From: a virus
Direction: 5' to 3' (one strand)
DNA: 26,369 nt
Virus record (IMG/VR): IMGVR_UViG_3300034104_003795
Location: 1-26,369 of that record
Under the pieces are notes generated by a model. The model was not told the DNA's origin, searched no databases, and was given only the letters and a program-made list of their open reading frames with translations. The translations under genes and the position numbers were made by a program. Positions within the stretch are counted from its first letter, which is position 1, and every line of letters starts with the position of its first letter. Positions 1 through 19,294 of this stretch are shown one piece after another.

Positions 1-1615
1 TTCTTACAAAATCATAATAAGCAAAATTAGCTACTTCTCTAAATTCAGGTCTTGCCAATGTTTTACTTAATGAGAATCTATACTTTACTTTATCTAAATT
101 ATAAGAAAGGTTTAATGATGGTAAAATATCTAAATACTCTCTATTCACATTTACTTTACTTCCACTAAAATCTGCGGTATTAACATTGAATAGATTATAC
201 TCACCTCTTAAACCTGTATTTAGTTTCCACTTTCCCCATTCGTTTTCATACATTGAGTAAAGAGAACCTAAATCAAAATCGGCAGTGTATCTATCCGTAT
301 TATTTGTTATTTCATCCAACATATCAGTTGAAAGATATCTGAATATCCTTGCATTAAAGCCTCTAATCTTTTTTAGGTAACCACCACCTATTTTAATTTT
401 ACCAAAATCTTTGTTGATATTACCATTAAAACTATTCTCATCCATTACACTCCAAAAACGATATGTATCTCTCCATGCAGTAGCATAAGGTTCGTTTACA
501 CCTAATGATTTTGTAATTGGATTAACTCTATAATCTGGTTGTTCTCTGAATATAAAATTATATCCTAAATTGAAATCTAATGTTTTAATCTTCCCATCAA
601 ATTGAGAATTGATAACAACATTATTAATATGGTTAGATGAATTACTTAAAACATTTTGAACATTATCAAAGTTATCGCCATTACGAGTTAAATATGTATC
701 ATCCGCCTGATAGTTTACTAATGTTTTCCAGCTATATCGGTTTTTACCTAAATAAGTTAAGTTTAATAAACTATTTGCGGAAAATCTTTTCGTAAACAAA
801 GTATCTCTATAATCATATGCCAATTCAGTTGATGATTGATAATCAGTTCTTTCAATATAATTTAATCCAAATGTATTTCTAATTGTTGAACTAAACAATG
901 CATTAAATTTGTTTTTCTTTAAACCAAATGATAATCCACCATTTAAGTTTGGTGATGATGTAAACCCTTCTACAATTGGATTACCAAATTGTTTTGTGAA
1001 TAATCTTTTATCACCATTACTACTAATACGATATTTGTAAGTGGATGGGAATGTGGAAGGGAATTCGGTAGCTTGAACTAACTTAAAATCTTTAAGAGAT
1101 GAAACCAAACCCCAACCACTTCCCAATGAGATATTGAAAAAGTTATCGGATACTTCTTTTGTTGTAATTTGTACCAATCCACCACTCCAATCGCCCGGTT
1201 GGTTTGCGGATGCTGATTTGGCAACTATAATATTATCAATTAATGATGTTGGAATTATATCAAATGAAAATGCTCTCCTATCAGGTTCGGTTGATGGTAG
1301 GAGTGTTTTGTTTAGGATAGCTGAATTATATCTATCTGCCAATCCTCTTACCAATACAAACTTATCGTTTTGAATTGTTACACCACTTACTCTTTTAAGT
1401 GCATCACCAACATTTCTATCAGGTGTTTTTTTAATAAAATCTATTGATACTCCATCCGATACTACGGATGAATTACGAATGGTTGTTATTACAGCTACTT
1501 CTGTAGATTTCTTACCCGCTGAACGGACTGTAATTGTGGATAGTTGTTTGGAAAATAATGTGTCTTGTGAATACGTTAGAAATGGAAGTAACATTAATAA
1601 AAGAAACGCTCTCAT
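1..1615 (-). CDS. TonB-dependent outer-membrane receptor, C-terminus beyond window
   Basis: An open frame of 538 codons runs from ATG at 1615 to the window edge without a stop. Residues 1-17 (MRAFLLLMLLPFLTYSQ) form a signal peptide ending in the SQ typical of Bacteroidota. A short segment with a TonB-box-like STITV follows, then the plug domain with the family signatures VRGLADRYN, STEPDRRAFSFDIIP and DWSGGLVQI at about residues 85-150, then beta-barrel repeats rich in aromatic residues and asparagine. Family members are usually 800-950 residues, so about 60% is present. The N-terminal CarboxypepD_reg-like domain common in SusC-type receptors is absent. In cells such receptors import siderophores, vitamins or glycans using TonB energy. 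On a phage-like contig it could alter host uptake or block superinfection (inference). Its start codon lies inside a long inverted repeat. Confidence 0.9.
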   Translation of the reverse strand, partial: MRAFLLLMLLPFLTYSQDTLFSKQLSTITVRSAGKKSTEVAVITTIRNSSVVSDGVSIDFIKKTPDRNVGDALKRVSGVTIQNDKFVLVRGLADRYNSAILNKTLLPSTEPDRRAFSFDIIPTSLIDNIIVAKSASANQPGDWSGGLVQITTKEVSDNFFNISLGSGWGLVSSLKDFKLVQATEFPSTFPSTYKYRISSNGDKRLFTKQFGNPIVEGFTSSPNLNGGLSFGLKKNKFNALFSSTIRNTFGLNYIERTDYQSSTELAYDYRDTLFTKRFSANSLLNLTYLGKNRYSWKTLVNYQADDTYLTRNGDNFDNVQNVLSNSSNHINNVVINSQFDGKIKTLDFNLGYNFIFREQPDYRVNPITKSLGVNEPYATAWRDTYRFWSVMDENSFNGNINKDFGKIKIGGGYLKKIRGFNARIFRYLSTDMLDEITNNTDRYTADFDLGSLYSMYENEWGKWKLNTGLRGEYNLFNVNTADFSGSKVNVNREYLDILPSLNLSYNLDKVKYRFSLSKTLARPEFREVANFAYYDFVR

Positions 1616-3007: not shown

Positions 3008-3736
3008 TTATTTAGTGAATACACCTTTTTTAATCATTTTATCTAATATATTTGCACAAGCTATATCTAATGCTTTTTTAGTTGAAATACTAATAGTTGA
3101 TTGGTTAAACTTAATCGGGTCTATTGAAGCATCTGAAACTAATGTTAATTGTCTATTTGTTTTAGCCTCACCCAAACCAGATGCTGCGATGATTGAACCA
3201 TTTTCAGCATTTGTGAAACGAACCTGTAAACCTAAACGAGTTACCAAATTATCTTTGATACCATCTTTTAAATTTATTGTTTCATCTTCGGATACTGAAT
3301 AATCATATACTTCAATTTCAACAAAGTAATGTGCTAATTTAATCTTTCCTCTACCTTCAATTTTGTTTTCAGAAATACCAGCATTTGATGCTTTGAATTG
3401 AGCAACCATTCTGTTCTTAATTTCTGTTTTATCTTCGGTGAATTCAAATCTATTAAGGTTATCCAAATATTCCAATACGATATTTGCAACACCCAATCCA
3501 ACTCTCTTTTCTTTTAATTCAGGATACATTTCGTACACTTCTTCACCAATACCACATTTAAGGATTTGAATATACTTCTTTGGACCTTCGTAATCTAAAT
3601 ATGCAGATATATCTTTCTTTTTTTCAAAATCTGCTTTGAATTCTTCTGTTTTAGTACTTCCTATTGTTTGAGCATGTAGGACACCCACACCACTCGTAAT
3701 TAACAATATACCTAATAATACGATTAATTTTTTCAT
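3008..3736 (-). CDS. CsgG-like secretion-channel or envelope protein
   Basis: 242 residues with a signal peptide (MKKLIVLLGILLITSGVGVLHAQ, cleavage near VLHA/QT). The mature part has the CsgG/HfaB-type pattern: a segment like GLGVANIVLEYLDNLNRFEF, then beta strands (KIKLAHYFVEIEVYDYSV; LVTRLGLQVRFTNAENG) and a C-terminal helix that opens with KFNQSTISISTKKALD. CsgG forms a nonameric outer-membrane pore that exports curli subunits. Unlike Escherichia CsgG there is no lipobox cysteine. A class 2 promoter and terminator lie directly upstream, so it heads a unit with the 40-residue gene and the leader genes. The family match is by pattern and remote. Confidence 0.65.
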   Translation of the reverse strand: MKKLIVLLGILLITSGVGVLHAQTIGSTKTEEFKADFEKKKDISAYLDYEGPKKYIQILKCGIGEEVYEMYPELKEKRVGLGVANIVLEYLDNLNRFEFTEDKTEIKNRMVAQFKASNAGISENKIEGRGKIKLAHYFVEIEVYDYSVSEDETINLKDGIKDNLVTRLGLQVRFTNAENGSIIAASGLGEAKTNRQLTLVSDASIDPIKFNQSTISISTKKALDIACANILDKMIKKGVFTK

Positions 3737-3750
3737 ACATAAATAATTTA

Positions 3751-3762
3751 TTATAAATATAA
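3751..3762 (-). promoter_or_regulatory. Class 2 (putative late) promoter motif
   Basis: TTATATTTATAA on the minus strand, 14 nt before the CsgG-like ATG at 3736 and directly after the T-tract of the preceding terminator. The same motif precedes several other genes in the window. Confidence 0.55.
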
Positions 3763-3787
3763 AAAAAGGGAGAAACGATGTTCTCCC
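3761..3787 (-). terminator. Rho-independent terminator
   Basis: On the minus strand GGGAGAA, a 6-nt loop, TTCTCCC and seven T follow the stop of the second DUF2589-like gene by 5 bases. It is nearly identical to the terminator at 5193-5218. Confidence 0.85.
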
Positions 3788-3792
3788 CTAAT

Positions 3793-4269
3793 TTACTTTA
3801 CATTTGGGTCTTCTAGATTTTTGATATATTCATCAATCAATCTACTTACTGCTTCAGGCTTTTCATCAGCCTTAAACTTAACCTTTATTTTAGCCATCCC
3901 TGCTTCACTTGGATTATATCCTGAATCAACTTCAATACCTTTGATATTGTGTTCGTATCCTTTTTTCTTAAATAAACCTAATAAAGATTTTTTAAGACTG
4001 GATACTTCCTTTTCTTCATCACCAAATATAAGTCTACAAGTAAACTCAATATCTAGCTCATCTAATCCAATAGATGAATGGTCCGCTAAAATATAAAGAG
4101 GTACAACCAAATCCTTACCACCTATATTAAAGGAAGTAGTTTTGGGTGTACCATCTTCATTGAAATAGTTTCGGAGAGCATTAATATGCTGTCTTTCACT
4201 TATACCTTGAGAAACCATAGCGGCCTCTAATAGACCGCCAACTAGTTCCTCTACATTTAATCTTGCCAT
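3793..4269 (-). CDS. DUF2589-associated protein (second of a pair)
   Basis: 158 residues, no signal peptide or membrane segment. It opens with VEELVGGLLEAAMVSQGISE, followed by a strand-rich segment (NIGGKDLVVPLYILADHSSIG; DELDIEFTCRLIF), a Lys-rich loop (LLGLFKKKGYE) and the C-terminal strand MAKIKVKFKADEKPE. The strand pattern and pairing with the gene upstream resemble the two-gene DUF2589 arrangement seen in Bacteroidota and other bacteria; the biochemical role of DUF2589 is unknown. The gap to the upstream gene is 24 bp and a terminator follows, so the two are one transcript. Confidence 0.6.
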   Translation of the reverse strand: MARLNVEELVGGLLEAAMVSQGISERQHINALRNYFNEDGTPKTTSFNIGGKDLVVPLYILADHSSIGLDELDIEFTCRLIFGDEEKEVSSLKKSLLGLFKKKGYEHNIKGIEVDSGYNPSEAGMAKIKVKFKADEKPEAVSRLIDEYIKNLEDPNVK

Positions 4270-4293
4270 AATATAACCTTTATTTTTTAATTA

Positions 4294-4890
4294 TTACTTT
4301 GCTTCTTCAGTAAGTGGAATTAAAGATGGTTCTAACATTTGAGTTAGGTAATCTGATAATTTCAACATACCTTCAGTTGCTGGTAATTGTTCAGCATGTA
4401 CTTTTACATTGTATTTAGCTGAGTTGTCAGTACTTCTAGTGTTCTCTTTGTTTGTAGCTACTTTACCAGAAATTTTTGCATTCCAGCTCATACCCCAAAA
4501 TCTACCACCAGCTGATACTTCAACACTGCTTTCAGTTTTTACATCACTTTTTTCTGTCTCTGAAGTTTTTACTTCCATAGCAAATTCAATATCTGCTGAA
4601 GTGATTGCTAATGAAGGAAGTGGTACTAATGGTAACATAGGAACTTTACTATACAATTTTTGTATAGTTTGTTGACCTGTTGCACCATCGGTTACAACTC
4701 TGTTCATTTCAACATCTAAAGAACGTGCTTTAGTTTTTTTAGTTTTCTCGTCCGTTACGAATGCTACTTCAGAAATGTATTTCCAAGTTACTTCGTTTAA
4801 TTTTGCTTGACCTTTTGCCATACCAACAATCGGTGAAACAATCAAATCTTCAATAGGAAGACCTGCGAATTGGTCTGCGATACCTGCCAT
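4294..4890 (-). CDS. DUF2589 family protein
   Basis: 198 residues. The start MAGIADQFAGLPIEDLIVSP and the following KGQAKLNEVTWKYI are typical of DUF2589. The central part (LVPLPSLAITSADIEFAMEV, then SAGGRFWGMSWNAKISGKVA) is a beta-rich domain with a Ser/Glu/Lys-rich linker, and the tail has LSDYLTQMLEPSLIPL. There is no export signal. DUF2589 has no known function; the beta sandwich and paired genes suggest a structural or assembly role (inference). Its presence between membrane-protein genes and a CsgG-like gene is notable. An AT-rich 75-bp gap lies upstream without a clear terminator. Confidence 0.75.
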   Translation of the reverse strand: MAGIADQFAGLPIEDLIVSPIVGMAKGQAKLNEVTWKYISEVAFVTDEKTKKTKARSLDVEMNRVVTDGATGQQTIQKLYSKVPMLPLVPLPSLAITSADIEFAMEVKTSETEKSDVKTESSVEVSAGGRFWGMSWNAKISGKVATNKENTRSTDNSAKYNVKVHAEQLPATEGMLKLSDYLTQMLEPSLIPLTEEAK

Positions 4891-4965
4891 AAATTTAAAT
4901 TTTTATAATTAATTTTTTGTAACTTGTTCCAACATAAATATCCCAAAAAAGATAAAACAACCCAA

Positions 4966-5169
4966 TTATCCAAATTTTACTATTCCTTTGTACTCTTTTT
5001 TGATTTTTTCTATCTCAATAAGTGCTTCTTTATATTTTTCCTTTATTTCATCGTTTACCGTAAAATCCAAAACGGTCTCACAATGTGGACAGGCTGAGAC
5101 TGGGTGTTTGAATATAAATTCTAAAGTTAAACCAATCGGTTTTTTACAAGCTGGACAGGGTAGAGCCAT
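4966..5169 (-). CDS. Small zinc-ribbon protein with C-terminal helix
   Basis: 67 residues. Cys5-x-x-Cys8 and Cys27-x-x-Cys30 form a classic four-cysteine zinc ribbon, followed by a charged helix (NDEIKEKYKEALIEIEKIKK) and a short tail (KGIVKFG). A class 2 promoter motif 13 nt upstream, preceded by a terminator, makes it the first gene of the unit that continues into the DUF2589 pair. A constant partner or chaperone of those proteins would fit, but no function is known. Confidence 0.75.
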   Translation of the reverse strand: MALPCPACKKPIGLTLEFIFKHPVSACPHCETVLDFTVNDEIKEKYKEALIEIEKIKKEYKGIVKFG

Positions 5170-5182
5170 AACATTTTATTTA

Positions 5183-5194
5183 TTATAAATATAA
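5183..5194 (-). promoter_or_regulatory. Class 2 (putative late) promoter motif
   Basis: TTATATTTATAA on the minus strand, 13 nt before the ATG at 5169, following a terminator T-tract. Same arrangement as at 3751-3787. Confidence 0.55.
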
Positions 5195-5218
5195 AAAAGG
5201 GAGAAACTATGTTCTCCC
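5193..5218 (-). terminator. Rho-independent terminator
   Basis: Minus strand GGGAGAA, a 6-nt loop, TTCTCCC, then six T. It lies 40 bp after the stop of the holin-like gene and closes the envelope operon that begins near 11976. Confidence 0.85.
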
Positions 5219-5257
5219 TTAAATACTTCCGCCCTTCCTACAGTTAAAGGAAATATA

Positions 5258-5536
5258 TTATCCTAATTCTTCTTCAGTCCCAGCATCCAATTTGTTCTTA
5301 TCGTGTTCCGCTTTTCTATTGATGTACTTATCAACCGAAGCGATACCAAATGCGCCCAATGTGATTACTAAGAATCCGTTGAAAATATATTCGTTGATTA
5401 GTAATTCCTTACCCATATAACCTGTTATCAAGTCTACGAATAATGCAAGTACCATACAACCAAATGATAAGAAACCAACTACTGATTTTTCGTTGATATC
5501 ATTGTTGTCTTTGAATAATTCTTTAAAGAATCCCAT
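5258..5536 (-). CDS. Holin-like two-helix membrane protein
   Basis: 92 residues with two hydrophobic helices (about 20-40 and 50-67) separated by a short loop containing GYMGKELLINEYIF, a charged N-terminus and a Lys/Glu-rich C-terminal tail (KYINRKAEHDKNK). Size and topology match class II holins, the inner-membrane proteins that time lysis, and similar proteins occur in phages of Bacteroidota. No endolysin is visible next to it, so the holin role is tentative; it may be another membrane factor of the envelope block. Confidence 0.6.
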   Translation of the reverse strand: MGFFKELFKDNNDINEKSVVGFLSFGCMVLALFVDLITGYMGKELLINEYIFNGFLVITLGAFGIASVDKYINRKAEHDKNKLDAGTEEELG

Positions 5537-5579
5537 AATTTTACAATTTAATTAATTAATGTAACAATACATAACTAAT

Positions 5580-6239
5580 TTATCCAGCTTGTTCAGCATC
5601 TTCATCTTTAATCTTTCCACACTTCAAACATTCTTCATCGCCATCTCCGTCTAAGTCACCCCAAACGTGCTCACATTGTCTATGTGCAAAATATACATCA
5701 ATCTTACCATCACCATCAAAATCAATACCATCCATTACACCATCACCATCTTCATCTACCTCAATACCGGTTCTTGGTTGAGCTTTAAAAGGGCTTTCAA
5801 TAATGTGAGGATTATTTGGTTCTGATTTTACTTCCACTTTATTTGCTTCGATAAGGTTAATTTCATGTGCGTTTTTTGCAGCTTGTACAAATGCATCTGG
5901 AATCAATGGAGTGTTATTTGGTGGAGTTACAGGCATATCAGCAGTATTGCTTAATGATGTACCATCTTCCTCATCCATCTTTTGTACTAACATCTTATCC
6001 TTATCGGTATCACTAAACCAATAATCTATAATCTTACCATAAGAACCGATGAAAGCTCCTAATAACAATAATAGAAGTTCTTTCCATTCTCCTTCTATTG
6101 CAGATTTGTTAAATATAGCAAAGAACATTCCTGCCATAATAAACATAAATCCACCCAACACCATAGCAGTAATCCACCATCTACGGCTCATCATTTTATT
6201 TAATAGGTCTTTAAACCCACTTGGTTGTTGCTCTGCCAT
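5580..6239 (-). CDS. Membrane protein with calcium-binding and zinc-like motifs
   Basis: 219 residues. Two transmembrane helices (about 20-45 and 53-73, LLLLLLGAFIGSYGKIIDYW) sit in a holin-like N-terminal region. A Pro/Asn-rich linker leads to acidic loops of thrombospondin-3/EF-hand type (DEDGDGVMDGIDFDGDGKID) near residues 160-180. The tail has a Cys/His cluster (CEHVWGDLDGDGDEECLKCG) that could bind zinc as well as calcium. The same GIDxDGDG loop pattern recurs in the large membrane protein at 17879-19294. Neighbouring genes are also membrane proteins; a calcium-stabilised domain attached to the inner membrane is what can be said. Confidence 0.7.
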   Translation of the reverse strand: MAEQQPSGFKDLLNKMMSRRWWITAMVLGGFMFIMAGMFFAIFNKSAIEGEWKELLLLLLGAFIGSYGKIIDYWFSDTDKDKMLVQKMDEEDGTSLSNTADMPVTPPNNTPLIPDAFVQAAKNAHEINLIEANKVEVKSEPNNPHIIESPFKAQPRTGIEVDEDGDGVMDGIDFDGDGKIDVYFAHRQCEHVWGDLDGDGDEECLKCGKIKDEDAEQAG

Positions 6240-6262
6240 TTTATATAAATTTTAGTTTTTTA

Positions 6263-6583
6263 TTACCATTCAGCTGGTTTCTCTTTGAATTCATCACCTT
6301 CTTTCTTCTTCTCCTTTGGAGCTGGTGCTGGTTGTGCCGTTCCACCATTTCCACCTTTGTTGATGATTACAGTTTTACCTGCTGCTTGAGATTGTTGGTT
6401 AGAGTTTGTAATGTTAATTACTGGAGCAGCTGCCGGTGCCGGAGTTGCTTCTTTATCATCACCGCCTGTTAATTTTGTTGTGAACCAACCACCCACACCT
6501 AATGTGATAGTTGATACAAGTCCTAATAGTATGTTCTTTATTGAACCACCACCACTTGATTGTTCTTGTTGTTCTTCTGCCAT
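6263..6583 (-). CDS. Single-pass membrane protein with low-complexity tail
   Basis: 106 residues. A short hydrophilic N-terminus rich in Glu, Gln and Gly precedes one hydrophobic helix (about residues 16-36, NILLGLVSTITLGVGGWFTT). The remainder is Ala/Pro-rich (ATPAPAAAPVINI), then Asn/Gln-rich, then a highly charged end (PKEKKKEGDEFKEKPAEW). No family recognised. The layout of anchor plus flexible tail suggests a tether or spanin-like spacer, without a lipobox. It lies 23 bp from the next membrane gene in the same operon. Confidence 0.65.
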   Translation of the reverse strand: MAEEQQEQSSGGGSIKNILLGLVSTITLGVGGWFTTKLTGGDDKEATPAPAAAPVINITNSNQQSQAAGKTVIINKGGNGGTAQPAPAPKEKKKEGDEFKEKPAEW

Positions 6584-6610
6584 TTTGTTTTTATTTTAAT
6601 GTTACAAATT

Positions 6611-6982
6611 TTATAACTTATTGAAATCAGTAATACCAATCATCTTACCATTTGCATCATATAGAGCTATTCTATAAGCTGATGCCGGTAAAGCGGTAGT
6701 ATATACTTTTAATATATTATCTCCAGAATTTGCGTACATTGTTTCTTTAGATACTACTCTATTTGCAATATCTAAAATTTTAACTGTCACATTTCCTGCA
6801 GTTTCTAGCTTTACGTTCATAGCCACTTCCGAAGTGACAAATTGAGATTGTAACTTAATACCAGCGGTTGCTGACATTTTTAATTCTGCGTTTGGATTTA
6901 CAGGTTGAATCATATCAATTGGAGATTTTCTACATCCAACCAAGATGATTACTCCAAATAACACTAATAATACTTTTTTCAT
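6611..6982 (-). CDS. Small lipoprotein, paralogue of the next gene upstream
   Basis: 123 residues. The signal sequence MKKVLLVLFGVIILVGCRKS carries a lipobox (LVGC), so the mature protein is a lipid-anchored envelope protein. The C-terminal half (NVTVKILDIANRVV, then NILKVYTTALPASAYRIALY) resembles the beta-sandwich tail domains of type IX secretion substrates. Here it is attached to a lipoprotein, so it more likely serves as a small beta domain than as a sorting signal. It aligns along its length with the protein at 6995-7348, from which it is separated by 12 bp. Confidence 0.75.
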   Translation of the reverse strand: MKKVLLVLFGVIILVGCRKSPIDMIQPVNPNAELKMSATAGIKLQSQFVTSEVAMNVKLETAGNVTVKILDIANRVVSKETMYANSGDNILKVYTTALPASAYRIALYDANGKMIGITDFNKL

Positions 6983-6994
6983 TTTAATTCTATT

Positions 6995-7348
6995 TTAATT
7001 TATTATCAGTAACGTTTTACCTATTTGGACACTATTCTCATCTTCCAAAGATAAATATAAATATCTAACAGGTAACGATTTTGTGTATAACTTTAAGGAA
7101 TTTTCCCCAATTTTACCAATTATTCTTTCTCTAGTAACTACTTGCTGACCTACTGAATCAAAAAGAGTAAGTGTATATATTCCTTCCGATTTTAAAGTGA
7201 ACTTAAATTGTTCTCCGTTTCCAATAGATGCTTCTTTAACAGAAAATATATCTTCTACTTTTGGTGGTGGGGTTGGTTCTACTTCTACTTTTCTACAAGA
7301 GATTATAAAAACAACACAACACAATAAGATTAATATTAACTTTTTCAT
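6995..7348 (-). CDS. Small lipoprotein, paralogue of the next gene downstream
   Basis: 117 residues with signal and lipobox (MKKLILILLCCVVFIISCRK). A Pro-rich linker (VEPTPPPKVED) leads to a beta domain (YTLTLFDSVGQQVVTRERI, ENSLKLYTKSLPVRYLYLSL) that matches the neighbour: both have the (E/D)N-L-K-(L/V)-Y-T core and an L/ALP turn. The start codon overlaps the stop of the large lectin-domain gene by one base (TAATG), so translation is probably coupled and the lipoproteins may anchor or fold those secreted proteins (inference). Confidence 0.75.
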   Translation of the reverse strand: MKKLILILLCCVVFIISCRKVEVEPTPPPKVEDIFSVKEASIGNGEQFKFTLKSEGIYTLTLFDSVGQQVVTRERIIGKIGENSLKLYTKSLPVRYLYLSLEDENSVQIGKTLLIIN

Positions 7349-9636
7349 TATTTCATTTTTACTTTTAATGTGTTTCCGCTTTTATTTACTGCATCGGTGA
7401 ATGAAATTGAAATTAAACCTAATACATTGTTCAATTTTGTTTGTGGTTTGAAACTGATTTTATATTCGGTAGTATTATCTAAAACCCCACCATCAGTAAT
7501 TAAAGAACCAAAATTTACATAATCACCTTTATCAGTTCCATAATTAGTTGGTGACCCCTTTGTCTTATAAGATACACTACTAAATTTCAATAAACTATTA
7601 TCGTAATTTAATTTGAATTGAGTTCCAACTAATTCTTGTTGTAATGGGTCAATCTTAATATATGCAGTAACACTATCTCCAATAATTTCAGTTATTATAG
7701 ATGCGTTTATTTGATTTGATATTGGTAAACTCATTGGTATAACACTCATACTTCTAATAGAAGAACCTGATATCGCAGGTGGAGTTTGTTGTGCTGAATG
7801 TGATAAATTTACATCACCTTTCCAAGTTACACTAACATTATATGTGTTATTAAGTGTTCCACTATTCAAATTAAATGGATATAAACTTCTAGTGTAATTG
7901 AATTGTGTATTCCAATTTGATTTTGTAATCGCATCATATTCCGATTTTCCATACAACTTCATCAAATAAGTTAATGTTGAATATTCATTAATAGGTTGTA
8001 CACCTATTAAATGTTGTAATAATTTATAGGTATCGGTTTCATTAAATACACCATTACCATCTACATCTGCGTTCATAAATTGAATACCAGATGTAAACTC
8101 TAATCCACTTTCGTTTCCAAATATTCCACTATTTGATAATTCTTTAAATGCCAAATACACATCGGATACACTTACTACACTACTATATAAATTATTTAGT
8201 TCGGTTTGATTAGTATATGATAAATCAATTCCATGTTGCTTAAACATCACATTAGGTGTAAATGTAAACTCTGCACTCAACCCCCAAAAAAATCCAGCTC
8301 TTCTTATATTAGATGAAAATGATGAACCTGCAAAATTAAGTTCCGTTGGTGTATAAATCCAATATGCGGCCCAAGTTCCATCATCCCATTGATAAGTTAC
8401 AGCCCCATTCCACAAATCAAATAATTGTAAACTTGTAACACTACTTGCTGAAGTACCTTGTGGGAATTCTCTTTTATCAATTAGGATTTGATATCTTTGG
8501 GATTGTGATTCATAATCATATACTACGCACCATTCTACTTGTCCGCCTGATGTTGTTGCTCTAACACCATTACCATTTACCTTTACAGTATCTAAATCAT
8601 TTGTTAAATCAACTTTACCTAATCCACTTATAGCTCTTGATGTGTTAGTTGTTGTTCCCCACACATTGTTTACAAAAGTATTTGCTTTTGCTGTAAATTT
8701 AGTTTCATCTACATTACTTCCAAAATCAAAATTAAATCTTGCTGTTAATACTTCCCCATTTGAATGTGTTACTGAATTTGTATAGAATTCTGTAAATGTT
8801 GCATCATCAGGGTTAGTCCAAGTTCCGTATTCAATTACATAAGGGCAACTAAATCCATTCGGTAAATCATTCCATTGAGAACCGTTCCATTTTGTTACCG
8901 CATAATCTTCGTTACCACTATTGTTTGGTTCACCAGGTGCCCAGTTATTATATTGACCTTGTATGTTTCCGGCTGTTTGTCCGTTTGATGTTTTTATTAG
9001 AGTTCCAGCTTCAGGACCGGCATCAATTCTCCATTGTCCCTCAACAGCTTCATCCGTTAATGCAAACCAAATGTTTGTTTGTGGAACATTGTTAAACACA
9101 AACGCATCTTCATCTGCGGAAGTGATTGTTACCAAATATCCTTGTTGCCCTTTAAATGTGGTATTTAACGCTGCCGCCCTTGCACCCGTATAACTTGTTC
9201 CTGTTGATATTGGTCTATAAAAATGACCATTTGTTCCATTGTAAAAGAACCCCGTTGGATTAACCGTAGCTGCTACCGATAATGCAATATTACCTCTTAC
9301 TGAACCTGTGTTTACTTTTAAAGATGCTAATGCCGTATTGATATTAGCCATTGTTCCCGTTACCACTAAACGAGTCTTATTACCTGCTAATGTAAATCCA
9401 CTAGCTGCAGTTAGACCTGTTGTTGTGGTTAAGTTAAATGTAGTACCTGTTGGTGGATTAACTAAACTGATTGAAGCTAATAGAGTTGCGGTTGAACCAA
9501 ATCCACTCAATACAAACCCACTCGCATCTTGTCCGTTTGTGGATGGTAAAAAAGATTTAGAGTCCGGTGCAGATACACTCTGACCGAACCCTAAATTTGT
9601 AATTAATAAAAATAAAAATATTAATAAGTTTCTCAT
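7348..9636 (-). CDS. Secreted modular protein: C-type lectin, dockerin-like and cohesin-like domains
   Basis: 762 residues. Signal peptide 1-19 (ends GFGQ). Residues 20-125 are a Thr/Ala-rich beta repeat. Residues 130-271 are a C-type lectin-like domain with the calcium and sugar-binding motif WAPGEPNN (EPN, 236-238, the mannose-type triplet) and WND at 255-257; only Cys264 of the usual disulfide cysteines is present. A beta-rich middle follows. Residues 523-545 are one dockerin-type calcium loop (DVDGNGVFNETD). Residues 645-762 resemble a cohesin (GTQFKLNYDNSLLKFSSVSY). Residues from about 480 to the end are paralogous to the next gene upstream. Likely secreted or surface-displayed glycan-binding protein. 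Both ends overlap neighbours by one base. Confidence 0.8.
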   Translation of the reverse strand: MRNLLIFLFLLITNLGFGQSVSAPDSKSFLPSTNGQDASGFVLSGFGSTATLLASISLVNPPTGTTFNLTTTTGLTAASGFTLAGNKTRLVVTGTMANINTALASLKVNTGSVRGNIALSVAATVNPTGFFYNGTNGHFYRPISTGTSYTGARAAALNTTFKGQQGYLVTITSADEDAFVFNNVPQTNIWFALTDEAVEGQWRIDAGPEAGTLIKTSNGQTAGNIQGQYNNWAPGEPNNSGNEDYAVTKWNGSQWNDLPNGFSCPYVIEYGTWTNPDDATFTEFYTNSVTHSNGEVLTARFNFDFGSNVDETKFTAKANTFVNNVWGTTTNTSRAISGLGKVDLTNDLDTVKVNGNGVRATTSGGQVEWCVVYDYESQSQRYQILIDKREFPQGTSASSVTSLQLFDLWNGAVTYQWDDGTWAAYWIYTPTELNFAGSSFSSNIRRAGFFWGLSAEFTFTPNVMFKQHGIDLSYTNQTELNNLYSSVVSVSDVYLAFKELSNSGIFGNESGLEFTSGIQFMNADVDGNGVFNETDTYKLLQHLIGVQPINEYSTLTYLMKLYGKSEYDAITKSNWNTQFNYTRSLYPFNLNSGTLNNTYNVSVTWKGDVNLSHSAQQTPPAISGSSIRSMSVIPMSLPISNQINASIITEIIGDSVTAYIKIDPLQQELVGTQFKLNYDNSLLKFSSVSYKTKGSPTNYGTDKGDYVNFGSLITDGGVLDNTTEYKISFKPQTKLNNVLGLISISFTDAVNKSGNTLKVKMK

Positions 9637-11318
9637 TAGTCTACTACAAGTTCTATCTTCTTACCAGTCGCATCAACAGCATCTGCTAGTACAAAGAAGA
9701 ATAAACCGGCAGTATTGCTTAATGGAACTTTTGGTGTGAAGATTAATTTATATGGAATACCAGTTTTGATTCTAGAAACTTTTATTTGGTCAATAGAACC
9801 AAATGTCAATCTACCATTATCATGCGTTGAGAAATTGGTGATTGTAGAACCAGCATCAAATATTACATTATCTAATGTTAATTTTGTTGAATCATAATTC
9901 ATAATAACCTGTAAACCCGCTAAACCTTCTTTGGTTAATCTAGTACTTAAAACAACTTTACCACCTTCTAATGTAGATACTACACTTAAAGATGCTTGTT
10001 CTAATTTAGCACTTTCATATGAATTTGATTGATATGAAGTCATTGCCATTGTTGACATACTCTTTATAGTAGCAACATCCGATGTACCAGGATTAGCTGC
10101 ATTTGTAAAGATACCACTTGCTATTCTTGCAGCTACAGTATCAGGATGAGATGAATGTGACCAATCCAAATCACCACCCCATGCAAATACAGCATCCACA
10201 GTTTGTGCAGGTTGTGTAACATATACTCTATATTTTGAAGTACCATCTAACCAACTCTGATTTAACAATCCACTATTCCATCTCCAAGAAGTTGCAGTTG
10301 ATGTTGGTATAAATGCGTTAGCCGATACGTCTTGTCCCATTACATAAGCAAATGCGTAATAAGAATCTGCTTCGGTGAAGGTCATATCATTTTTAGTAAT
10401 ATTACCAATTTTCTTTTCTAAATTTGGTCTTGTGAAATAATTTGCAACACCACTAATATCAGTTTGTGAAACACCTAAGAATGATTTGTATGCATCTGAT
10501 ACAGTTATAACATTGTTCATCCAAGTCTTTTGTGATGCAGGTGATACAAATACACCTAATGAATCACCAACTTTAATACCAGAAGTAAATAAGGCTTCAC
10601 CACTACCATCTAATGCTCTTTGTGCAATAGGTTGTTGTGACCAATCTATATCACCAGTACCATCGGTTTTTAATTTCATTAATTGAATGTTATGGTCAGC
10701 AATATTATATCCAGATGGAAATAATACTCTTACTTTAAAGAAAGAAGTATTACCAGTCACTCCGGTAATTGATAAAGGACCGGATGTTGTTTTTACATAT
10801 GGAATATTTGCACCAGTAGCACTATCTAAAGCATATGATAAATCCAATTTATGAAAGTTTTGATAAGTGTTTTGGTCTTTAATGATATACTTTTGTGTTG
10901 CTATCACACCATTTACCGATTGGTCTGCTCTTTGAACTGCTAATTGTCCAACATTCCAATCTGCATTTACAGCATATCCCCAAGGTGTAGTGGTATATTG
11001 ACCATATAAAGATGTATCACTCACATTTGCATTTGAGGTGAACTTATAGTTAGTCCAACCGGTATAATAAGTTTGTGATTGACTACCTTGTGAGAAAGCA
11101 GTAGATACATAAGTTAAAGCCTTATTATTAAATTGATATCTTAACCAAAAATAACGTGGTTTAGTTACACCTTTATCTACACTATATGTTACGGTTACAG
11201 TATCACCAACTTTATAAGGTCCTGCTGAAATAGATTGGTTTACAACTATTTGCGCTTCTGTCTTAAATGTTAATAGGGATATCACCAATACCCCTAAAAA
11301 TGTTAATAGTTTTTTCAT
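9636..11318 (-). CDS. Secreted modular protein with cohesin-like domains
   Basis: 560 residues with a signal peptide (about 1-23, ending TEAQ). Residues 30-135 form a cohesin-like beta domain (KVGDTVTVTYSV; NNKALTYVSTAF). Residues 269-400 match the lectin protein: VITVSDAYKSFLGVS against VVSVSDVYLAFKELS, and GGDLDWSHSS against KGDVNLSHSA. The segment 306-328 aligns with its dockerin loop but has lost most acidic ligands. Residues 440-560 are a second cohesin-like domain. No catalytic motif is seen. It looks like a surface scaffold or fibre component. Translation of the following gene is coupled by a TAATG overlap. Confidence 0.75.
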   Translation of the reverse strand: MKKLLTFLGVLVISLLTFKTEAQIVVNQSISAGPYKVGDTVTVTYSVDKGVTKPRYFWLRYQFNNKALTYVSTAFSQGSQSQTYYTGWTNYKFTSNANVSDTSLYGQYTTTPWGYAVNADWNVGQLAVQRADQSVNGVIATQKYIIKDQNTYQNFHKLDLSYALDSATGANIPYVKTTSGPLSITGVTGNTSFFKVRVLFPSGYNIADHNIQLMKLKTDGTGDIDWSQQPIAQRALDGSGEALFTSGIKVGDSLGVFVSPASQKTWMNNVITVSDAYKSFLGVSQTDISGVANYFTRPNLEKKIGNITKNDMTFTEADSYYAFAYVMGQDVSANAFIPTSTATSWRWNSGLLNQSWLDGTSKYRVYVTQPAQTVDAVFAWGGDLDWSHSSHPDTVAARIASGIFTNAANPGTSDVATIKSMSTMAMTSYQSNSYESAKLEQASLSVVSTLEGGKVVLSTRLTKEGLAGLQVIMNYDSTKLTLDNVIFDAGSTITNFSTHDNGRLTFGSIDQIKVSRIKTGIPYKLIFTPKVPLSNTAGLFFFVLADAVDATGKKIELVVD

Positions 11319-11319
11319 C

Positions 11320-11976
11320 TTACTTTGCGTTTTTACCGAATAGTTTTTTAATCAAACTATCCGATGCTTTTTTAAGGGCGTTGCTTAAGGATGTTTGATT
11401 GAATTTACCACCCTGGTCAACGATTAACGTAGACATTGATATTTCAGATGAACTTTCTTCCACCACCACTTCTTTCTCTTTCTTTCCATCTTTATAAAGA
11501 ATACCCTGTAGTCTTACAACCACTTCTTCTTCTCCTTTATGAAAAACTGAAATATTTGTTTTTGTAGATAACACATCCAAATAAACAATATTTACTTTTA
11601 ATTTGTATGGTGCATCCGGAGCTAAATCATATCCTTTTTCCTGAAGATATTCTTCTAATATATTTTTTACCCCAAATGCCAAATTACGATTTCCGGCTAA
11701 TTTACCAATCTTAACCTGGTTTTCAACACCTTCAACCCAAACGTGGTCTGATTCTTCATACCAAATATTTTCTGGATTATTTTTGAATGTACCGTCAATT
11801 CTATGAGTAATTTCATTAGAGAGTTCGGTAGCCCATTGTTCTCTACCACTAATTTGTAGAAATACAAAGAACAATTGGAATACGAGTGCAAATCCTATAA
11901 AAAGACCAACACCCAGTAAAAACATTTTGAACAATAACTCTTTAAAGTTCAAAACAGTTGATTTAATGTATTGCAT
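11320..11976 (-). CDS. Membrane-anchored periplasmic protein, CsgG-like
   Basis: 218 residues. One strong transmembrane helix (about 17-42, MFLLGVGLFIGFALVFQLFF) anchors a predicted periplasmic domain. The domain has LAFGVKNILEEYLQEKGYDL, two strands (YKLKVNIVYLDVL; VVVRLQGILYKDG) and a C-terminal helix opening GKFNQTSLSNALKKASDSL. This order, including the FNQ(S/T) start of the last helix, matches the CsgG-like protein at 3008-3736, so I read them as distant paralogues, here anchored in the inner membrane. It is the first gene of the envelope operon; the next gene starts one base after its stop. Confidence 0.6.
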   Translation of the reverse strand: MQYIKSTVLNFKELLFKMFLLGVGLFIGFALVFQLFFVFLQISGREQWATELSNEITHRIDGTFKNNPENIWYEESDHVWVEGVENQVKIGKLAGNRNLAFGVKNILEEYLQEKGYDLAPDAPYKLKVNIVYLDVLSTKTNISVFHKGEEEVVVRLQGILYKDGKKEKEVVVEESSSEISMSTLIVDQGGKFNQTSLSNALKKASDSLIKKLFGKNAK

Positions 11977-12070: not shown

Positions 12071-12108
12071 ATAAAAAGAGTATCCAAACATAAATATTGG
12101 ATACTCTT
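12071..12108 (-). terminator. Rho-independent terminator
   Basis: A perfect 12-bp stem (AAGAGTATCCAA with TTGGATACTCTT), a 9-nt loop and a T-rich tail (TTTTTAT) on the minus strand, 27 bp after the DUF5856-like gene. The rest of the 158-bp gap to 11976 holds the upstream region of the envelope operon; I see no class 1 or class 2 promoter there, only a weak TTGTGA/TATACT pair. Confidence 0.85.
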
Positions 12109-14066: not shown

Positions 14067-14648
14067 TTAAATTACACTCCATCCTTTTTGTAGGTAAGAA
14101 TCAACCTTTTTGCTTTTTACAAATTCCATTTCACCCGCAGGTCCTTGTAACATAACTCTTTCATTTCTACCAGGTGCTTTATCTTTTGTAATAGTTTCTG
14201 AATATTGACGAGTTGGATGTGTAATATCAATACCATCAATTGCATCCAAAGCCCGTTGTACTAACACAGCTTCCAATAAGCCGGCATCACTAAAAAATTC
14301 ATCAGCACTTTTCCAATCAAATGTTTCACTCGTTGCTTTAAATTCAACTTTTCCCAAATTATCGGTTTCCAATACTATCCAAGGGTAACGAATTGTTTTT
14401 CTAACTTTATTTTCTTTATATGTATCTTTTTCAAAATATACCAATGGTCTATCTGATAATGATATTACTTTTGGGTTTACCAAAGTTAATTCATCTTCTT
14501 TATTTCCCAATCGTATAGTAATGATTCGTTTATCAATTAATACATCCGCGGCACTAAATACAATGCCTTCTAAAGAAGATATCAATGATTTATACGAAGA
14601 AACATCTTCGGCAGATATTGGAGCCTCACTAATTTTTTTTATTTTCAT
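14067..14648 (-). CDS. Peptide-deformylase-like protein lacking catalytic motifs, with leader
   Basis: 193 residues from ATG 14648, one base past the upstream stop; a start at 14696 would overlap by 47 bp. Residues 1-9 (MKIKKISEA) form an I-x-E/A leader. The body follows the deformylase strand order: VLIDKRIITIRLG (after a GLAAPQVG-like position), LVNPKVISLSDRPLVYFE, YPWIVLETDNLGKVEF and LLEAVLVQRALDAIDGIDI. The three metal and catalytic motifs are gone: no GxGxAAxQ, no EGCLS, and HExxH is replaced by QRALD at 131-135. So it is probably an inactive structural relative. The end (MLQGPAGEMEFVKSKKVD) is separate. Identification is by pattern and could be wrong. Confidence 0.55.
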   Translation of the reverse strand: MKIKKISEAPISAEDVSSYKSLISSLEGIVFSAADVLIDKRIITIRLGNKEDELTLVNPKVISLSDRPLVYFEKDTYKENKVRKTIRYPWIVLETDNLGKVEFKATSETFDWKSADEFFSDAGLLEAVLVQRALDAIDGIDITHPTRQYSETITKDKAPGRNERVMLQGPAGEMEFVKSKKVDSYLQKGWSVI

Positions 14649-14649
14649 T

Positions 14650-14913
14650 TTATTTATTTTTATATTTAATAGTATTTTCAAAAAATTCTTTATCAATTAA
14701 TTTCCATTTATTTGCAGGGCAAGCATTTTCAACTGGCGAATATATCTTACCGCTCAACGGACACCCACACAATCCGCATCTTGCAAAAGCAATTACTTGC
14801 TTATGTTCACATGAATTACAAATATCCATTCTTAAAGATGCTAACTGTTTTTGTGCTTCATTTGGATTGAATGAAGTTTTCCATGCTTTAAAAATTTCTT
14901 CAACTTTATTCAT
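14650..14913 (-). CDS. Small multi-cysteine zinc-binding protein
   Basis: 87 residues. Cys32-x-x-Cys35, Cys46-x-x-Cys49, Cys51 and Cys65 form a zinc ribbon of a type common in phages: LASLRMDICNSCE, RCGLCGCPLSGK and ACPANKW. The function is unknown, perhaps nucleic-acid or protein binding. It overlaps the gene upstream by 8 bp and ends one base before the deformylase-like gene. Confidence 0.75.
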   Translation of the reverse strand: MNKVEEIFKAWKTSFNPNEAQKQLASLRMDICNSCEHKQVIAFARCGLCGCPLSGKIYSPVENACPANKWKLIDKEFFENTIKYKNK

Positions 14914-17878: not shown

Positions 17879-19294
17879 TTAGTATGATTTACTTGAGAAA
17901 TCGGTTGGATATTGAGAAGGTTTGATATGTTTTATCCAATAATTAACCGCATTTTGGTCATTTATCCAATGTTTACGGTCAGCCCAATTGAAATCAGGTC
18001 TAGCATAGTATGGTAACATATTTTGTATTGCTGCCGCTCTACCAGGATGCGATGCTATAACTCTATTTATTAAACCATCACCATCGGTATCTATACCATC
18101 AGTACTACCATCACCATCCAAATCAATAGCTCTTTCTGAATAATCAGTTTTAAGATTTAATAGTATTTCATCGGTGATTTCTGGTTCTAATGCTTTCTTT
18201 TCTTCATCCGTTAATGTAGAGTATTCCTCTTCCAAATTTGTTGGAGTGGCATCAGTTTCGTTTTTTTTTATGTCCTCATTATATTGAGTAGCTACATTAA
18301 CTAATTGTTCGTTTGGTTCTGATGGATTTTCTATTTCATTAAAGAATACTTCCGAATCTTTTTCTGATAGAGTTATTGGTTCATCGTATAATCCTAACTC
18401 TTGGTCATTTTTCATCATTTCGGCTAATAAATCCTCTCGTCTTTTCTTATCACCATATACCTCATAATTCTTATAATTCTCATCCATCAATTCATCCAAC
18501 CCATCTCCTAATGTAGCATCCCAATCTGATAAATCATCTTCTTCTTTTCGTTTCATCAATAATCCATTAAATGCTATAATCAATGCAACTGCTAACGGGT
18601 CAAATACAATTACTATAATGAATATAAAGAATTTTACAACTGTATTAAGTGGTACTCCAAATGCTTCTGCTACGAAACGAAATCCACCAACTTCTCTTTC
18701 TAATTCAATGTTGTTATTTTTGATTGCGTTAATTGAATCTAATGCAACATTGTTTTGTCTTGTCAGTTCATCAATACGTTTAGATACCGATGCAATTTCT
18801 TTATCGGCAGTTTTAATCATTTGCGATACTCTTGAAGTTGATTTATCTTTATCTATTTGTTTAGATAAATTAGCTTCTTGTGAGTTACGAATATTTTGTT
18901 GGTTAGTTAATTGAGTTGTATAACGGGCTATCTCTCCATCATTTTTAGTGATTTGAGTTTGATACACTGCAATATCTCTTTCAATCTTTTGTAATCCCAA
19001 ATTTTGTTGTTGGAATGCGTTTGATAGATACCCAAAGATACCTGCTGATGTGATAAGCATCAAAGTACCAACTGATATAGTTAAATACCATTTGTTAAAT
19101 CCTTTAAGGGTATCCCATTCTTGTTTTAGGTATGTTGCGGCAACTAATTTAGCAAGTTCCAATGAACCTGCCATTACCATTACCGAAACCGATGCTCCCG
19201 CAAATAGTACACCTAATCCAGTTACAGAGAAATAAGCCGCACATCCGGCAACAAGGATTGCTGAAAGCCCAACTAATACTTTTAACCAATTCAT
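17879..19294 (-). CDS. Membrane protein with coiled coil and calcium-binding loops
   Basis: 471 residues. N-terminal hydrophobic helices (about 4-55, including VTGLGVLFAGASVSVMVMAG, and 70-90), a long coiled coil (95-195, KIERDIAVYQTQITKNDGEI onward), a further membrane helix pair (about 213-245, FFIFIIVIVFDPLAVALIIA) and a long acidic cytoplasmic-like region. Near residues 393-415 come two EF-hand-like loops (DLDGDGSTDGIDTDGDGL). The tail is aromatic (FNWADRKHWINDQNAVNYW). Similar proteins occur in many phages of varied hosts without assigned role. The coil between membrane helices suggests a scaffold or sensor of the envelope. Six bases from the small helical gene upstream. Confidence 0.75.
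   Translation of the reverse strand: MNWLKVLVGLSAILVAGCAAYFSVTGLGVLFAGASVSVMVMAGSLELAKLVAATYLKQEWDTLKGFNKWYLTISVGTLMLITSAGIFGYLSNAFQQQNLGLQKIERDIAVYQTQITKNDGEIARYTTQLTNQQNIRNSQEANLSKQIDKDKSTSRVSQMIKTADKEIASVSKRIDELTRQNNVALDSINAIKNNNIELEREVGGFRFVAEAFGVPLNTVVKFFIFIIVIVFDPLAVALIIAFNGLLMKRKEEDDLSDWDATLGDGLDELMDENYKNYEVYGDKKRREDLLAEMMKNDQELGLYDEPITLSEKDSEVFFNEIENPSEPNEQLVNVATQYNEDIKKNETDATPTNLEEEYSTLTDEEKKALEPEITDEILLNLKTDYSERAIDLDGDGSTDGIDTDGDGLINRVIASHPGRAAAIQNMLPYYARPDFNWADRKHWINDQNAVNYWIKHIKPSQYPTDFSSKSY

Follow-up and report, generated by a model that had tools for sequence, protein, structure and literature searches.

Conserved terminators divide the block into three transcription units

The window analyzed here is a stretch of 26,369 nucleotides that forms the first 26.4 kb of a virus record of 274 kb (IMG/VR record IMGVR_UViG_3300034104_003795). 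Between positions 3008 and 11976, a first-pass annotation made from the sequence alone had described a block of twelve same-strand envelope and surface assembly genes. We found all twelve open reading frames (ORFs) where that annotation had placed them, all on the minus strand, and we named them, from 11976 to 3008, GB, SEC1, SEC2, LP1, LP2, TMa, TMb, TMc, Zn, DUFa, DUFb, and GA. The tight spacing reported from 11976 to 6995 was confirmed, with gaps of +1, -1, and -1 bp at the GB/SEC1, SEC1/SEC2, and SEC2/LP1 junctions, respectively.

Terminators that are kept in relatives divide the block into three transcription units. Unit 1 comprises GB-SEC1-SEC2-LP1-LP2-TMa-TMb-TMc, unit 2 consists of the zinc ribbon gene and the two DUF2589 genes, and unit 3 starts with GA, the CsgG-like gene. 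An intrinsic terminator with a 12-bp stem followed by a T run (positions 12076 to 12108, minus strand; -17.5 kcal/mol, z = -4.05) lies upstream of unit 1. Two near-identical minus-strand hairpins with T tails close unit 1 (5197 to 5220) and unit 2 (3766 to 3789), and they bracket exactly Zn-DUFa-DUFb. Among the distinct junctions of relatives, a terminator was present at 7/7 TMc-Zn, 8/8 DUFb-GA, 8/10 TMc-GA, and 15/17 DUF5856-GB junctions but at none of the 59 GB-SEC, 35 LP-TMa, 31 TMa-TMb, 30 TMb-TMc, and 14 GA-OMB10 junctions (OMB10 is the gene that follows GA in relatives). The mean in shuffled sequences was 0, and the counts ignore kinship among contigs. Since conserved terminators split it, the block is one array with respect to strand but not with respect to transcription. 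Upstream of GB, the single match to the Bacteroidota promoter motif, TATGTTTG, was rejected because it sits inside the terminator hairpin, so we claim neither a promoter class nor a timing. A search against Rfam gave no match.

SEC1 and SEC2 are predicted secreted proteins with lectin and cohesin-like domains

Both large proteins of unit 1 carry a signal peptide, in agreement with their first description as secreted modular proteins. SEC1 (9636 to 11318) has a C-terminal cohesin-like domain (residues 443 to 556), detected with an iterated home-made hidden Markov model (HMM; 2.8e-42). SEC2 (7348 to 9636) combines a C-type lectin domain (residues 163 to 267), a variable middle (∼301 to 480), a dockerin-like domain (501 to 543), and a cohesin-like domain (643 to 759), an arrangement suggestive of a modular adhesin. 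The lectin domain qualifies as a C-type lectin and scored above the Pfam Lectin_C cut-off (29.1 versus 22.6 bits), and the EPN and WND motifs were found in the window SEC2 and in all 41 distinct lectin-bearing relatives. The Pfam matches of the dockerin-like and cohesin-like domains of SEC2 fell under the cut-off (Cohesin, residues 653 to 738, 21.0 versus 24.1 bits), and those of relatives exceeded it for Cohesin, for example, gp015 of Flavobacterium phage immuto (36.7 bits). This protein, called a cohesin by Pfam independently of our HMM, is also among the 100 of 113 distinct SEC proteins, window SEC1 included, that the HMM matched.

Relatives exchange their binding modules, with PA14 in the place of the lectin or LCCL in the middle, and residues 301 to 480 are the variable part of SEC2 within the window's lineage. 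Judged from the sequences, this exchange and this variable middle are typical of a binding protein built on a constant scaffold, and the retention of the lectin motifs together with the swapping of binding heads suggests a specific sugar target. Lectin diversification by a diversity-generating retroelement was considered and rejected, as the window's record contains no match to the reverse transcriptase family.

Predicted envelope proteins accompany the secreted proteins

GB (11320 to 11976), the first gene of unit 1, encodes a protein with one N-terminal transmembrane (TM) segment (residues 20 to 38), no lipobox, and a weak likeness to YajG and TraT, which makes it CsgG-superfamily-like. Its Pfam matches, Lipoprotein_16 (E = 6e-5) and TraT (E = 0.05), both lie under the curated cut-offs; Lipoprotein_16 was matched by 8 of the 54 proteins scanned, and the best TraT match remained weak (0.0017). 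The inner-membrane anchor of the CsgG-like protein first proposed here holds, and the family likeness stays below cut-offs.

GA (3008 to 3736) carries a signal peptide and adopts a CsgG fold in an AlphaFold2 (AF2) model of the monomer (pLDDT 75). When this model was compared to the PDB with Foldseek, the CsgG structures 4uv2, 6l7c, and 4uv3 came on top (E = 3.5e-7, probability 1.00, TM-score ∼0.47, identity ∼10%), and its best viral structural match is annotated CsgG. The early call of an exported CsgG-like protein is therefore supported by the predicted structure. By sequence, GA matched no PDB entry, and profile searches of the PDB that started from GA, GB, and DUF2589 sequences returned nothing convincing. 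Profile comparison of GA with GB revealed a C-terminal motif alone in common.

OMB10 follows GA in 9 of 9 distinct loci having at least 6 kb downstream. Modelled from one of these relatives (locus L039), it consists of an N-terminal domain, a helix, a long disordered linker rich in Ser and Lys, and a 12-stranded barrel. We consider OMB10 a predicted outer-membrane barrel protein that resembles FapF in general architecture alone; its assignment to the PorP/SprF-type barrels was rejected, as no such match was obtained. OMB10 lies outside the 9-kb block, and the record end removes it here. In the window's lineage, a TonB-dependent-receptor-like gene, cut by this end (positions 2 to 1615, minus strand), is located downstream of GA, and OMB10 comes after that gene in the closest relatives. 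A complete homologue (L084:12826-15078) matches OMP_b-brl_3 (2.6e-24) and Plug (1.6e-7). The window's record contains a second TonB-dependent-receptor-like gene of 1,086 amino acids with CarboxypepD_reg on the opposite strand (28749 to 32009; L169:2450-5710, plus strand). The same record (L169:11045-14557) holds about ten small tandem genes of 90 to 156 amino acids, many beginning with MLTIxN, that look paralogous.

The remaining products of unit 1 are small. LP1 (6995 to 7348) and LP2 (6611 to 6982) are the two paralogous lipoproteins recognized initially; they are 26% identical, and the lipobox Cys is invariant in both. LP2 is weakly like DUF3244, FlgD_ig, and the sorting tail of the type IX secretion system (T9SS), and a kinship of LP with such tails was rejected because the likeness is weak (hhalign probability 65). 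Of the three small membrane proteins announced, TMb and TMc possess clear TM segments, and TMa (6263 to 6583) proved weakly hydrophobic, with a Pro/Ala-rich tail. TMb (5580 to 6239) has a Cys-rich tail and a DxDGDG motif; such calcium-loop-like repeats also occur in the product of positions 17879 to 19294, an otherwise unlike membrane protein. TMc (5258 to 5536) has two TM segments and is holin-like through its position, which in other lineages adjoins endolysin genes. Neither TMb nor TMc matched a curated family, and TMc, perhaps also TMb, may be a lysis gene.

The cassette recurs in aquatic viral contigs and in a cultured phage

When GB and DUFa served as queries against viral contigs, 160 loci were obtained, some sharing a contig. 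The order GB-SEC-SEC-LP-LP-TMa-TMb-TMc-...-GA-OMB10 recurs with different neighbors upstream of GB. Units 1 and 3, which we refer to as the cassette, were found together, between differing flanks, in dozens of viral contigs from aquatic sources; with protein families and gene order recurring in this way, the block reflects more than chance. The carriers are probably jumbo phages of aquatic Bacteroidota. Among 400 Flavobacteriaceae genomes, GA was present in one, on a 12.6-kb phage-like contig of a metagenome-assembled genome (MAG) that also carries an endolysin and most of the cassette. The cassette is thus viral as far as tested and is not confined to bacterial chromosomes.

A diverged version exists in the cultured Flavobacterium phage immuto (NC_055915), whose host is Flavobacterium sp. 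LMO8. There, gp013 (lectin), gp014 (a related protein), gp015 (cohesin with a T9SS tail), gp016 (TMa), gp017 (GA), gp018 (OMB10), and gp019 (GB) are annotated as lectin, cohesin, or hypothetical proteins, and the literature that we found describes no function for them. The immuto GA is 56% identical to that of the window. The T9SS sorting tail of gp015 is of type A (2.4e-8; TIGR04183, 9e-12). In L151, a second deep branch, SEC combines a cohesin with a T9SS tail just under cut-off (6.2e-6), and GA carries a lipobox, LATSC. The core common to both deep branches comprises SEC, TMa, GA, and OMB10; TMa, kept in all branches, adjoins GA in both, and LP, TMb, and TMc were not found in the immuto set. 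This set lies among replication genes, apart from the virion genes at 82 to 90 and 119 to 160 kb and 6 to 27 kb away from the annotated endolysin/holin genes at 22 and 44 kb.

Two further observations concern immuto. A NUC1-type nuclease with a signal peptide is encoded by gp012 and, in the window's record, at ∼168838 to 169443 (L168:13839-14444); in immuto and some contigs, relatives of this nuclease are neighbors of the cassette, and they might act against incoming DNA. In addition, a cluster of glycosyltransferase, aminotransferase, and epimerase genes (immuto 49172-59988) may also change surface glycans.

The zinc ribbon/DUF2589 trio is a separate cargo

Unit 2 encodes a zinc ribbon (4966 to 5169; CPxC...CPxC) and two DUF2589 proteins, DUFa (4294 to 4890; PF11655, 2.6e-30, 106 bits) and DUFb (3793 to 4269; 6.5e-13, 50 bits), both above the Pfam cut-off of 23 bits, as the first reading of these genes had it. 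Many other viral contigs carry this trio by itself, and some have it upstream of GB. DUF2589 was detected in 18 of 297 Bacteroidota genomes, once within the same zinc-ribbon trio on a chromosome (L182), and in no INPHARED phage. The TMc-GA slot, occupied by the trio in the window's lineage, holds, in other lineages, either a lipase or a glycosyltransferase (GT2) together with an LpxH-like enzyme. Together, these results establish that the trio is a separate mobile insertion with its own terminators, and the 9 kb cannot be regarded as one assembly system.

Proposed role of the cassette

A phage-borne set with a predicted CsgG-fold protein and secreted modular proteins agrees with the original idea of surface-export parts acting in the infected cell. 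The reading that we favor, and hold to be somewhat probable, is that units 1 and 3 bring modular lectin/cohesin adhesins to the surface of the infected Bacteroidota cell. This proposal rests on the signal peptides, lipoboxes, and TM segments, on the lectin, cohesin, and dockerin matches and the exchange of modules, on the predicted CsgG fold and barrel, and on the T9SS tails. It also draws on the retention of SEC, TMa, GA, and OMB10 in the deep branches and on the position of the immuto set away from lysis and virion genes. From the genes alone, we infer the display on the infected cell, the export route, its timing, and its benefit. SEC1 and SEC2 would cross the inner membrane by Sec, in keeping with their signal peptides. 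GA, as a periplasmic CsgG-fold protein that may form a ring, its inner-membrane-anchored relative GB, TMa, and OMB10 would provide the route across the envelope; in the deep branches, the host T9SS probably exports the cohesin protein, as its curated sorting domain suggests. LP1 and LP2 probably anchor proteins at the outer membrane, and, more speculatively, subunits could be linked through the dockerin-like and cohesin-like domains that share a chain. The lectin head probably binds sugar, because it has kept the motifs of Ca2+-dependent, mannose-type lectins. What the phage gains is probably that further hosts are aggregated or captured, or that competing phages are excluded.

Several results weigh against this display of adhesins. 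No GA member matched Pfam CsgG at E ≤ 0.05, the window GA and its branch have a signal peptide without a lipobox, and, with GA modelled as a monomer, membrane-inserting hairpins that form an oligomeric pore are hypothetical. The PDB matches of OMB10 (OmpG, FapF, NanC, and others) are generic barrels, and the window's record, which stops before the place of OMB10 is reached, contained no OMB10. No T9SS sorting tail was detected in that record, SEC1 and SEC2 included. Finally, the cassette adjoins a GH19 endolysin and the spanin-like gene c24 in several lineages, which fits lysis equally. L165 has its endolysin between GA and OMB10, and TMc precedes c24 in some lineages.

A rival explanation is that TMb and TMc are holins, that GB, GA, and OMB10 form an assembly across the envelope that, instead of spanins, opens or tears the outer membrane, and that the SEC proteins act on envelope glycans at release. 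The long disordered linker of OMB10, between its N-terminal domain and barrel, would suit such a role, and a proposal of this kind has been published for CsgGF in phage Melnitz by Buchholz et al. (PMC9004378). However, the endolysin of the window's record lies at 163 kb, the annotated lysis genes of immuto are 6 to 27 kb away from its set, and lysis has no need for lectin, PA14, or LCCL heads or for T9SS tails, so we regard this explanation as unlikely. Superinfection exclusion as the specific role, in which the surface proteins, together with a TraT/YajG-like protein, would hide receptors or prevent entry, is likewise unlikely, and slightly less probable. GB is like YajG and, weakly, the surface-exclusion protein TraT, the TMc-GA slot of relatives contains envelope-altering cargo (GT2, LpxH-like enzyme), and the secreted nuclease adjoins the immuto set, but the weakness of the TraT match and the size of the modular lectin, larger than exclusion needs, argue otherwise.

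Tail proteins often have C-type lectin or beta-sandwich folds, the binding modules are exchangeable and variable, and the cassette of the window's record would stand near tail genes if the record ends join; SEC1 and SEC2 might accordingly be virion-associated fibers or decorations and the block a receptor-binding module. We judge this very unlikely, since the signal peptides of both SEC proteins and the unit-1 lipoproteins point to products that leave the cytoplasm, the site of virion assembly, immuto and L151 have T9SS tails, and no PHROG tail family matched SEC. That the genes were acquired from bacteria without a role in infection is hardly credible: the DUF2589 trio does occur in Bacteroidota chromosomes, but 399 of 400 Flavobacteriaceae genomes lacked GA, and diverged phages have preserved the gene order, the terminators, and the lectin motifs. 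As for the adhesin display that we favor, the cultured pair of immuto and Flavobacterium sp. LMO8 makes the capture, exclusion, and lysis-timing proposals directly testable.

Comparison with known systems

The first-pass annotation knew of no described phage system with this set. Curli (type VIII secretion) operons with CsgG have been published in pelagiphages and in the OM43 phage Melnitz, with capture, exclusion, and lysis roles proposed and none proven (PMC7029224, PMC9599517, PMC9004378), so that the claim stands only for the gene set, which differs. The window also encodes a peptide deformylase (14067 to 14696; Pfam, 2.5e-8), an enzyme that pelagiphages are reported to carry as well.

Like phage curli, the cassette is a phage-borne module absent from hosts that combines a CsgG-fold protein with a number of secreted and envelope proteins, passes from one phage lineage to another, and invites the same proposals of capture, exclusion, or lysis. 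Unlike curli, it has a GA outside the CsgG sequence family and, in the window branch, devoid of a lipobox, and it adds lectin/cohesin cargo, a 12-stranded barrel, a second CsgG-like protein, lipoproteins, and T9SS tails, in phages of Bacteroidota. Pfam detected no CsgA/CsgB curlin repeats, CsgF, or CsgE in the block proteins or their relatives. As these families and that of CsgG were searched for and not found, the cassette is, on sequence grounds, curli-like in outline but not a curli member.

FapF, the secretion pore of Pseudomonas functional amyloid, was among the top Foldseek matches of OMB10 (identity ∼10%), and both have a 12-stranded barrel after a helix and linker; OMB10 differs by its own N-terminal domain and Ser/Lys-rich linker, and no Fap fiber genes were identified. 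Cohesin- and dockerin-like domains are shared with the cellulosome, whereas the cassette has both on the same short chains, with lectin/PA14 heads, no enzyme domain found, and binding that is hypothetical. With T9SS substrates, the likeness is the type A tail of immuto gp015 and the borderline one of L151 SEC, which SEC1 and SEC2 of the window lack. It is conceivable, though rather doubtful, that the cassette constitutes a hitherto undescribed surface-fiber system distinct from curli, Fap, and T9SS, with cohesin-dockerin chains, exchangeable lectin tips, and an export route of its own in which a CsgG-fold ring, TMa, and a 12-stranded barrel carried on a long linker take part. Our literature search found ocean-phage curli as the sole published phage-borne surface export modules, with their function untested there. 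The existence of another module, built differently and kept by dozens of aquatic phages that probably infect Bacteroidota, suggests that phages repeatedly resort to altering the surface of the cells they infect.

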